Under the pieces are notes generated by a model. That model ran no database searches, was not told where the DNA came from, and saw only the letters and a program-made list of their open reading frames with translations. A program made the translations under genes and the position numbers. DNA of 51,692 nt from Spirochaetota bacterium (GTDB lineage: Bacteria; Spirochaetota; UBA4802; JAFGJZ01). The stretch lies in NCBI GenBank assembly GCA_027858855.1, contig JAQIBV010000027.1, positions 1 through 51,692 of the forward strand, given 5' to 3'. Below, piece after piece: positions 36,499 to 41,228 of this stretch. How positions within the stretch are numbered: position 1 is the first letter of the stretch; every line of letters begins with the position of its first letter.

Positions 36499-36721
36499 TT
36501 TGCACCTCCGTAAATAAAGATTGTACACATATTATGTCTACTAGTACGGGTATCGGCAATAACTTTATTTACATTAGCATATTATCCTCATTTTTCCTGT
36601 TTTTATGTCTCTTTACCAGAGCTTCTTAAAGTATTTAAAGCTTAAAAATGTTCTTTACAGAGGCGCTCTAAAACTATTTTTAATTATCATAATCGATATT
36701 CCATATTTTGAGGTTACAGCA

Positions 36722-37795: not shown

Positions 37796-37903
37796 AAAGA
37801 GTTATTCTGGAAATTTTAAATCGCAAAACACAGCAAACAATTATCTTGACATTATTATGACCAATATAAGAGTACAATGAGCCTCATAAGACCATCTGTA
37901 AAC

Positions 37904-38057
37904 AAAAGGGAACTTCGAAAAATTACAGAAGAATTTTGAAAAAATTTCTAAATTCCAGAGGGTAACATCGTTTAAGTACCTATTAAGGACAATTTTTCTC
38001 GCAAAGCTCAAAAAAGCGCAAAATTTTAGCTTATAAGAATTTTTCGTAAGTTCCTTT
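37904..38057. repeat. 154-bp inverted-repeat element upstream of cimA
   Basis: The ends, AAAAGGGAACTTCGAAAAATT and AATTTTTCGTAAGTTCCTTT, are near-perfect complements (one inserted base on each side), and weaker pairing continues inward for about 15 bp. The interior is AT-rich with no convincing gene; the minus-strand frame across it lacks any family signature. It is either a MITE-like palindromic insertion or a long structured leader of cimA, and lies about 130 bp before cimA. A CGCATATGCG palindrome lies just to its right (38086-38095). Confidence 0.55.
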
Positions 38058-38190: not shown

Positions 38191-39774
38191 ATGAACAAGC
38201 AGCCAGTAGCCATATTCGACTCAACACTCCGTGATGGTGCACAAGCAGAAGGCATCTCCTTTTCTGTTAAAGATAAAATAGATATTTTACAGACCCTTGA
38301 TAGTTTTGGCATTGCCTATATTGAAGCTGGAAATCCCGGTTCAAACCCTAAAGATCTGGAATTTTTTGAAGCGGCAGACAAAATTAAACTAAAAAACAGT
38401 ACTCTGGCAGCCTTCGGTAGCACGCGACGCCGCAACATAAAAGTAGAGGATGACGCCAACGTGCAATCACTGCTTAAAGCAAATACCCCTGCCGTAGTAA
38501 TCTTTGGTAAAAGCTGGGATTTTCATGTAACCGAAATTTTAAAGGCAACACTGAATGAAAATCTGGAGATGATAACCGACACAATTGCCTTTTTCAAAGA
38601 GAAAGGTAAAGAGGTCATCTTTGATGCAGAACATTTTTTTGATGGTTACAAAAACAACGCTGAATATGCACTCAGCTCGTTAAGGGCAGCAGTTAAGGGC
38701 GGAGCCGACAGCATCTGTCTTTGTGAGACTAATGGGGGTGCGTTTCCTGACGAAGTCGCCACTATTGTGAAAACAGTGTCTGAAAAATTCGCTGATATAC
38801 CTATTGGTATTCACACTCACAACGACAGTGGGATGGCTGTCGCCAATTCGGTTATAGCAGTAATTAACGGAGCAAGCCAGGTACAGGGAACATTCATCGG
38901 TTTCGGGGAGCGTTGTGGAAACGCCAACCTGTCTGCAATTATCCCCAACCTTGAAATAAAGCGGGGATACAGTTGTCTTCCTGAAGGAGCCCTGACCGAG
39001 CTCACCACTACAGCTCGTAAGATTGCAACAATTGCGAACATGCAGCTACCCGATTTTTATCCTTTTGTCGGAAACAGCGCATTTGCACATAAAGGCGGTA
39101 TGCATATTGATGGCGTAAACAAAAATTCACGAACATTCGAACATATCGAACCCTCACTGGTTGGTAACGAACGACGCTTTCTTGTTTCAGAAGTCGCTGG
39201 TCGCAGCATGATACTTTCGAGTATACAGAAAATTGATCCGTCAATTGGCAAAGATTCTGAAGAGACGAAAGATATAATCAATATACTAAAATCTATGGAA
39301 CATGAAGGTTACCAGTTTGAAGGTGCTGAAAGCTCGTTTGAACTGGTCATTCATCGCCACCTTAAGACCTACAAGCCCTTTTTCGACCTTGAGCACTTTA
39401 AGATTATCGGAGAAGAGCCAGCACACGACAGAACGGCCTGTACCAATGCCATAATTAAAGTAAAAGTGGGTGATACCAGCGAAATCACTGCTGCTGAAGG
39501 AGATGGCCCAGTTAACGCATTAGACAAGGCCCTTCGAAAAGCGTTAGACCGCTTCTTTCCTGAATTAAAGAATGTACGCCTCACTGATTTCAAGGTTCGT
39601 GTACTCGATACAAAAAATGCAACTGCGGCCAAGGTACGTGTACTAATTGAATCGACTGATGGAGAAAACATCTGGAGTACAATCGGAGTTTCTACTGATA
39701 TTATTGAAGCGAGCTGGAAAGCACTAGTCGATTCAATTGAATACAAATTGTTAATGAAAACTTTCGAAAACTGA
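38191..39774 (+). CDS. cimA: (R)-citramalate synthase
   Basis: A 527-residue acetyl-CoA-dependent synthase of the LeuA/CimA family. It has FDSTLRDGAQAEGISFS at the N-terminus, the metal motif IHTHNDSGMAVANS, KGGMHIDGV and a C-terminal regulatory (LeuA dimer) domain from ~375. The length and the AQAEGISFS variant favour the citramalate branch over isopropylmalate or homocitrate synthase. It condenses pyruvate and acetyl-CoA, giving isoleucine precursors without threonine, and is feedback-inhibited by isoleucine in characterised members. AAGGAG lies 6 nt before the ATG. Confidence 0.9.
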   Translation: MNKQPVAIFDSTLRDGAQAEGISFSVKDKIDILQTLDSFGIAYIEAGNPGSNPKDLEFFEAADKIKLKNSTLAAFGSTRRRNIKVEDDANVQSLLKANTPAVVIFGKSWDFHVTEILKATLNENLEMITDTIAFFKEKGKEVIFDAEHFFDGYKNNAEYALSSLRAAVKGGADSICLCETNGGAFPDEVATIVKTVSEKFADIPIGIHTHNDSGMAVANSVIAVINGASQVQGTFIGFGERCGNANLSAIIPNLEIKRGYSCLPEGALTELTTTARKIATIANMQLPDFYPFVGNSAFAHKGGMHIDGVNKNSRTFEHIEPSLVGNERRFLVSEVAGRSMILSSIQKIDPSIGKDSEETKDIINILKSMEHEGYQFEGAESSFELVIHRHLKTYKPFFDLEHFKIIGEEPAHDRTACTNAIIKVKVGDTSEITAAEGDGPVNALDKALRKALDRFFPELKNVRLTDFKVRVLDTKNATAAKVRVLIESTDGENIWSTIGVSTDIIEASWKALVDSIEYKLLMKTFEN

Positions 39775-39820
39775 ACTATGGGATTTAACAATTTATACAT
39801 TAATGTCCATCTGAATAATC

Positions 39821-39847
39821 AATTTTTCAGTGCAACACTGAAAAATT
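39821..39847. repeat. 12-bp perfect hairpin (T-rich arms) after cimA
   Basis: AATTTTTCAGTG and CACTGAAAAATT are exact complements around CAA, about 45 nt past the cimA stop. The A/T-runs are inside the stem, not after it, so it is not a standard terminator for cimA, though it may protect the 3' end. It adjoins a second perfect hairpin at 39854-39880. Confidence 0.5.
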
Positions 39848-39880
39848 AAAAAAGCTATATGGAGTTAAACTCCATATAGC
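39847..39880 (-). terminator. Intrinsic terminator pointing left, with no gene upstream of it
   Basis: GCTATATGGAGT and ACTCCATATAGC pair perfectly (12 bp) around a 3-nt loop. On the minus strand six T then AATTTTT follow. On the plus strand no T-run follows. No minus-strand coding frame exists to its right before the FecR lipoprotein gene (plus strand), so it appears to terminate a non-coding transcript. Confidence 0.75.
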
Positions 39881-40064
39881 AGATGACTGATGGCTTAAAA
39901 GATAATTGGTTATTTTTAAAAAGTCTCAAACAGGGCGCTCCATAAAGTCGTATTCTGCAAAAACGCCTTATCTTTTTCCCGCCTATAGTTTAGAGGCGAT
40001 CAGAGAAAAGACATTACTGAAAAACAATTTTAAGAAGTCCCAAATAATTATTATCTTCTATATT
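39848..40064 (-). ncRNA. Candidate small RNA, about 215 nt
   Basis: The interval lies between a consensus-like minus-strand promoter and the intrinsic terminator, and contains no open frame beyond a few codons on that strand. The predicted RNA has a 9-bp-plus-5-bp hairpin (TCTTTTCTC and CGCCT pairing with AGGCG and GGGAAAAAGA around loop CTAAACTAT) and a second GGCG/CGCC hairpin. It matches no family I recognise: tmRNA, SRP RNA and RNase P motifs are missing, and a 6S RNA fold is not clear. Confidence 0.45.
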
Positions 40065-40070
40065 TTAGAC

Positions 40071-40097
40071 TTTATATGCCGACGGCTGGCTTGTCAA
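40071..40097 (-). promoter_or_regulatory. Minus-strand promoter of the candidate small RNA
   Basis: A perfect TTGACA (40097-40092, minus strand) and TATAAA (40076-40071) are 15 bp apart, with TAAAGT as a 17-bp-spaced alternative. The expected start is near 40064. No coding gene lies downstream in this direction before the terminator. Confidence 0.5.
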
Positions 40098-40225
40098 TGG
40101 TTTCCTGGCTGTTTTTTAAAAAAACCAACCAGTCGGTTCGGAAATATAAAAAATCAGAAGCTTTTCCATTATATCCAATCTACAATTGCAGGTTACCATT
40201 ATAAAGTCACTTCCTCATAATAAAG

Positions 40226-40254
40226 TTGACATTAAGGTATAAAATTTGTTAATT
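40226..40254 (+). promoter_or_regulatory. Weak promoter candidate for the FecR lipoprotein gene
   Basis: TTGACA at 40226-40231 matches the -35 consensus; the hexamer at the 17-bp spacing, TTAATT (40249-40254), is a poor -10. The lipoprotein start codon is 42 bp further on. Confidence 0.3.
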
Positions 40255-40295
40255 ATAGATGTTCCATATATCCTGTTCGGCCTCTAGGAGGTATT

Positions 40296-41228
40296 ATGAA
40301 CAAACTATGTATATCCGTTCTTTTAGCAGCAGTAGTACTCACATCATGCAATAAAAAGCAAAGTGTTACTGATTATAGTGAAATCGAAGATCCACCGACT
40401 CCCCCCTCTTTCACCGTCAAGTTTGTTATTGGTGAAGCTCTGATCATTACGCCAGAATCTGAATCCCGGGCTATAACCGGCTCTACTCTAGGTATTAGCG
40501 ACACTATAAAGACCAAAGAGAAATCAACAGTCGATATTGCTTATGAAACATCAGGAATAATTCGAGTGAGCGAAAACAGTACACTAACAATTAAAGAGCT
40601 TATTGGCAGTTCTTCTAAAGAGACTTCTTTAACCCTCCCTGAGGGAAAGATTACAGTTACTCTTTCAAAGCTTAAAGAGGGAAAGTTTAAAGTTACCACC
40701 CCCACCATGGTAGCAGCCGTAAGGGGTACAACTTTTATGGTTCAAACCAGTGATAAAGCTTCTCAGCTCACTGTCCTTAATGGAACTGTAGAGGCCGCAC
40801 TCTCGCCTTCAGAAGCGGGAGGCTCAGATATAAAAGTCACTACCGCTCTGGGTGAAAAAGTCACCATCAATACTAAAGATATACCTAAATTAGTTAATAA
40901 AGAAAAAAAACTCAATGCTGTAAAAATGAAACGCGCTGAGCTGGTTCAAGCACAGACAGAACTAAAAAGTATACAGGACTCAAATTCAGAGTTGGATACA
41001 AGTGTAAAAAAAGAGCTTTCCGTGGTCTCTCCGAATGCAATTCAACTTAGTATCGATAAGATTGACAAAACCGCAGAGATGAAAGATACATCTGATGAAG
41101 ATGCTAAACGTCGCGCCGAAGAGGAAAGAAGGCTTCGCAAAGAAGAAGAGGCAAGGCGCCGTGCTGAAGAGAAGAAACGACGTATAGAGGATGCAAAAGA
41201 AAATGCAATAACAGCCCCTCCGATATAA
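40296..41228 (+). CDS. FecR-domain lipoprotein
   Basis: A 310-residue lipoprotein. The signal peptide ends in the lipobox LTSC with Cys18. Residues ~40-165 form a FecR-like beta-rich domain, including VTTPTMVAAVRGTTFMV, which matches the family core VxTPxxxAxVRGT. The C-terminal ~45 residues are an R/E/K-rich charged helix. FecR domains normally relay signals from TonB receptors to ECF sigma factors, but no such genes are adjacent; the spirochaete-type stand-alone FecR lipoproteins are of unknown role. AGGAGG lies 6 nt before the ATG. Confidence 0.85.
   Translation: MNKLCISVLLAAVVLTSCNKKQSVTDYSEIEDPPTPPSFTVKFVIGEALIITPESESRAITGSTLGISDTIKTKEKSTVDIAYETSGIIRVSENSTLTIKELIGSSSKETSLTLPEGKITVTLSKLKEGKFKVTTPTMVAAVRGTTFMVQTSDKASQLTVLNGTVEAALSPSEAGGSDIKVTTALGEKVTINTKDIPKLVNKEKKLNAVKMKRAELVQAQTELKSIQDSNSELDTSVKKELSVVSPNAIQLSIDKIDKTAEMKDTSDEDAKRRAEEERRLRKEEEARRRAEEKKRRIEDAKENAITAPPI

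Follow-up and report, generated by a model that had tools for sequence, protein, structure and literature searches.

A candidate genus-restricted small-RNA gene in the intergenic gap between cimA and a FecR-domain lipoprotein gene of a spirochaete

Organization of the cimA-fecR region

The window analysed here (51,692 nt) corresponds to contig C30 in the draft genome (3.35 Mb) of a spirochaete that is represented only by a metagenome assembly. It contains an intergenic gap between cimA and a gene for a FecR-domain lipoprotein (fecR), both on the plus strand, so that, as a sequence-only reading of this stretch had stated, a minus-strand terminator in the gap has no coding gene to serve. The features of the locus are as follows.

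38191-39774, plus strand: cimA, citramalate synthase (TIGR00977, 713 bits), convergent with the candidate RNA
39775-40295: intergenic gap between cimA and fecR
39848-39880, minus strand: intrinsic terminator, a 12-bp hairpin followed by U6
39887-39900, minus strand: conserved linker TTTTAAGCCATCAG, predicted to be mostly unpaired, a candidate target-pairing site
39897-40060, minus strand: predicted body, a long interrupted rod-like hairpin, conserved neither in sequence nor in length in the sister species
39849-40062, minus strand: predicted small RNA of about 214 nt, with a putative start about 7 nt past the -10 element
40069-40097, minus strand: promoter, with TTGACA at 40097-40092, a 17-nt spacer and TAAAGT at 40074-40069
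40118-40137, minus strand: ACCGACTGGTTGGTTTTTTT, an imperfect palindrome with a T-tract that lies 20 nt upstream of the -35 element
40296-41228, plus strand: fecR, FecR-domain lipoprotein gene (PF04773, E 7e-17), divergent from the candidate RNA

The locus was compared with that of one sister species, ‘Spirochaetes bacterium isolate Zod_Metabat.857’ (contig L025, evidently the same as G001:C30), whose cimA is 87% identical to that of the window at the amino acid level and 76% at the DNA level. The order fliD, aminopeptidase, cimA, gap, fecR, yjbR, mazG is the same in both species. In the window, no plus-strand intrinsic terminator was found after cimA. Identity between the congeners is only 36% for the FecR-domain lipoprotein, as against 87% for CimA. 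The lipoprotein shows weak similarity, below cut-off, to the Leptospira LipL45/Lsa33 models; from its sequence it reads as a fast-evolving surface protein.

Several other elements were observed in the neighbourhood. In both species, the gap that precedes cimA carries ACAATTATCTTGACA (37837-37855, plus strand), which is likely the cimA promoter and would be a sign of TTGACA promoter use in the genus. Just upstream of fliD, a block at 36529-36583 (minus strand) is strongly conserved with the sister species and contains TAAA...GCCGATA, as in flagellar sigma28 promoters. The gap before cimA in the window also holds GGGAACTTCGAAAAATT (37908-37924, plus strand), which in the sister species forms an inverted-repeat arm within the cimA-fecR gap (L025 5847-5935) and is found again in L163; it probably represents a small mobile repeat dispersed in the genus.

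Promoter and terminator signals on the minus strand

A perfect TTGACA followed by TATAAA had been proposed as the minus-strand promoter. The TTGACA is indeed there (40097-40092), but TATAAA (40076-40071) leaves a spacer of 15 nt, and we replaced it by TAAAGT, an imperfect -10 element (4/6 matches) that has the better spacing of 17 nt and is kept in the sister species. The 12-bp perfect hairpin with six T, expected about 190 nt past the promoter, was found 189 nt from the -10 element: GCTATATGGAGTTTAACTCCATATAGC at 39880-39854 forms 12 bp, five of them G-C pairs, around a 3-nt loop TTA, and is followed by TTTTTT. Another inverted repeat with perfect 12-bp arms, AATTTTTCAGTG CAA CACTGAAAAATT (39821-39847), lies directly past this terminator; it is not evident in the sister species.

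Generic counts of promoters and terminators in the 4-kb region equal the shuffle mean; thus, each signal alone is weak and the pair alone proves little. When a strict pair was defined as a perfect TTGACA and a hairpin of at least 8 bp with at least 5 T, located 40-350 nt apart, it occurred once in the whole 51.7-kb window, counting either strand. A minus-strand promoter with a perfect TTGACA and a score of at least 10/12 appeared in 1.4% of shuffles of the window gap and 2.0% of shuffles of the sister gap, giving a joint frequency of about 3e-4 for both promoters, counted post hoc.

Conservation in the sister species

The syntenic cimA-fecR gap of the sister species contains a promoter and then a terminator on the same strand, in the same order and with the same 17-nt promoter spacing (TTGACA-17-TAAATT, L025 5753-5725; a 14-bp hairpin with T5, L025 5654-5621). 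The best local match between the two gaps coincides exactly with the linker and the terminator (window 39900-39849; L025 5674-5616). Its score of 44 compares with 24.1 ± 2.8 for shuffles (maximum 38 of 500; 24.6 ± 3.0 in a repeat run), the probability of this match being a post hoc one. The linker has the consensus TTTTAArCCATCAG, and in the predicted fold its CCATCAG portion stays unpaired on the 3′ side of the body.

Within the terminator stem, ten pairs are unchanged, while both partners differ in two: the basal pair (G-C to T-A) and the top pair (T-A to A-T). The T-tract (T6 in the window, T5 in the sister species) stands on the minus strand only, directly after the stem, and in both species no more than 110 nt separate the hairpin from the cimA stop codon. 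Its arms, CTATATGGAG and CTCCATATAG, are 5 nt apart in the window and 12 nt in the sister species. A difference in arm spacing fits an RNA hairpin better than an operator, and the reading of the two arms as a DNA operator was rejected on account of these 7 nt. No other copy of the terminator hairpin was found in either genome; since it occurs once per genome and within the genus only, a repeat, a REP or a regulon element was rejected as well.

The sequence-only reading had suggested an alignment of the gap with relatives. In the sister species, this alignment shows the promoter and the terminator to be kept, the latter with the two compensatory stem changes, but not the structure of the body: the body and the rest of the gap are unalignable between the two species. 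Conservation above the neutral background is thereby limited to the 3′ module, in one sister species. The two gaps downstream of fecR gave no match above shuffles. In the gaps before cimA and before fliD there are conserved blocks, both at promoter-like sequence, so that conserved blocks in this neighbourhood seem to mark functional signals.

Ranking second among the local matches of the two gaps is the upstream palindrome (score 25, not significant alone), which in both species lies collinear with the promoter (L025 5764-5783 in the sister species). ACCGACTGGTTGGTTTTTTT has one copy in its own genome and is possibly a regulator site or an UP element. In the form ACCGnCYGGnnGGTTT, the palindrome sits between the divergent small-RNA and fecR promoters in both species, and the sister genome has a perfect version of it in front of a gene for a sugar-binding protein (L144 around 1501). 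We take it to resemble a TetR-type operator; a search along this line identified no regulator.

When a covariance model of the linker and terminator was run against 46 genomes of the order (the class-level search took in the same 46), only the two congeners matched and the 44 others did not. DNA comparison likewise gave no homologue of the body in its own genome and, in the 46 genomes of the order, nothing more than chance matches of 25 bp. On present data, the element is thus genus-restricted, as the module matches the two congeners only.

Predicted fold, coding potential and RNA family

The positions of the promoter and terminator predict an RNA of about 214 nt, in agreement with the ~215 nt given earlier. 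The whole predicted RNA folds at -57.2 kcal/mol (z -4.3) into a rod, an unpaired linker and the terminator. It had been credited with at least two stable hairpins, which holds for the terminator; the rest is one long interrupted rod, with a z-score of only about -2 when folded without the terminator (+0.25 for the plus strand). Among 66 background windows, 6% fold at z -2 or lower, so the rod is weakly supported. In the sister species, the distance from the -10 element to the hairpin is 70 nt, versus 189 nt in the window, and the predicted RNA of ~103 nt consists of a short 5′ hairpin, an unpaired linker and the terminator. The predicted plan common to both species is therefore a hairpin, the linker UUUUAArCCAUCAG and the terminator.

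No minus-strand open reading frame of at least 30 aa lies between the two signals, as the earlier reading had stated; the longest frame has 24 codons, starts with TTG and lacks a convincing Shine-Dalgarno site. A small protein was rejected because no short frame is common to the window and the sister species, and a riboswitch or leader of a downstream gene because the next minus-strand gene, fliD, is more than 3 kb away. The RNA had been said to match no recognised family, and the Rfam comparison proposed with that statement bore it out: no family reached threshold here or at the sister locus, and permissive searches of both loci gave chance scores only.

Interpretation of the locus

We consider it probable, judging from the sequence, that the gap holds a free-standing intergenic small-RNA gene that is restricted to the genus and has the layout of an Hfq-dependent trans-acting RNA. 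A free-standing small-RNA gene is supported by a promoter and a terminator that are kept in position, in strand and partly in sequence, and the linker with the terminator is the sole module with evolutionary support from the sequence comparison. The restriction of the T-tract to the minus strand, the better fold of the minus-strand body, the single strict pair in the window and the lack of a shared frame speak for it as well. Transcription would start on the minus strand from the gene's own sigma70-type promoter, proceed away from fecR and towards cimA, and end at the intrinsic terminator short of cimA. The working module would be the 3′ end, comprising the A/U-rich, mostly unpaired linker, the terminator hairpin and the U-tail; with Hfq bound, the linker would pair with targets in trans. 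We infer transcription, Hfq binding and pairing through the linker from these signals. An unpaired linker followed by a terminator hairpin and a U-tail is the usual layout of Hfq-dependent trans-acting base-pairing small RNAs, and the genome has an Hfq gene (PF17209, E 6.3e-30). A search of both genomes with the linker complement, CTGATGGYTTWA, gave matches that mostly fell within coding sequences, and a target common to both was not evident. Points against a small RNA are the single informative relative, the lack of conservation of the 5′ body, the twofold difference in predicted length, the imperfect -10 element and a body fold that falls within the tail of the background.

The main rival is an effect in cis on cimA, which we regard as unlikely. 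Here the cimA mRNA would run into the gap, and the minus-strand RNA would overlap its 3′ UTR and regulate cimA through duplex formation or polymerase collision. The convergent geometry is kept in both species, and cimA has no plus-strand intrinsic terminator in the window, both of which suit such an effect. Yet read-through from cimA is an assumption, the RNA stops short of the coding sequence, and the sequences of linker and stem are conserved, though pairing in cis requires no such conservation. The term ‘antisense’, used in the sequence-only reading, is thus not established: the RNA opposes no coding sequence and at most possibly a long cimA 3′ UTR.

It is rather improbable that the hairpin serves the plus strand as a 3′ end or stabiliser of the cimA mRNA (for example, after Rho-dependent termination), with an incidental minus-strand promoter. 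The hairpin does form on the plus strand too, close to the cimA stop codon in both species. But neither species has a T-tract on the plus side, whereas T6 or T5 comes right after the minus-strand stem; both have a perfect TTGACA upstream on the minus strand, with the low joint frequency given above; and, read on the plus strand, the conserved linker falls beyond the hairpin.

We give little credence to an extended form of the small-RNA reading, in which a genus-specific RNA, its 5′ body evolving fast and its linker-terminator module fixed, would share a palindromic operator (ACCGnCTGGnnGGT) with the FecR-domain surface lipoprotein and thereby be divergently coupled to it. If true, it would link the state of the envelope to citramalate (isoleucine) metabolism by an RNA undescribed in spirochaetes.

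There is a slim chance that the gap is a chance or decaying sequence, AT-rich and with random promoter- and terminator-like matches. The equality of generic regional counts with shuffles and the unalignable body are what chance would give; the significant conserved block, the compensatory changes and the conserved order in the sister species are not.

A second, diverged 6S RNA is highly improbable and largely refuted: the window RNA resembles 6S RNA (RF00013) in its predicted rod with an asymmetric central bulge or internal loop and a small side hairpin, but the covariance model gives no match at the locus with an E-value of 1 or lower, the sister RNA has no rod with a central bulge but just a short 5′ hairpin, and a canonical 6S RNA lies elsewhere in the genome (G000:C59:39767-39942, 73.6 bits to RF00013, the sole 6S match there). 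RF00013 matches are present in all four genomes of the family.

Relation to known small RNAs

The candidate resembles Hfq-associated trans-encoded intergenic small RNAs in having its own promoter, a predicted length in the range of 100-215 nt, no reading frame, an unpaired A/U-rich linker and a hairpin with a U-tail, in a genome that encodes Hfq. Unlike them, it is a predicted RNA and shares no sequence family with the class. Orphan small RNAs were predicted in Sinorhizobium meliloti from intergenic promoters and terminators that point the same way and are separated by 40-500 bp, and this locus has such a pair; the candidates in that study were checked by Northern blot and microarray, whereas the one in the window is predicted (PMC2573895).

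Small intergenic RNAs of spirochaetes are already known in numbers (PMC5243855, PMC5051733); the candidate itself is previously uncatalogued. Those of Leptospira interrogans, found by RNA-seq, are about 100 nt long and are reported mostly to lack an intrinsic terminator (PMC5243855), in contrast to the strong one at this locus; no homologue was identified. In Borrelia burgdorferi, 62 purely intergenic ncRNAs were described (PMC5051733), which are likewise short intergenic spirochaete transcripts, but based on RNA-seq rather than on prediction.

Two points follow, neither of which overturns current understanding. Through this locus, a spirochaete lineage that has been little studied would gain a small RNA of the Hfq type with an intrinsic terminator, and the locus would offer a small-RNA gene whose 3′ module has been kept between congeners while its 5′ body has fully turned over.
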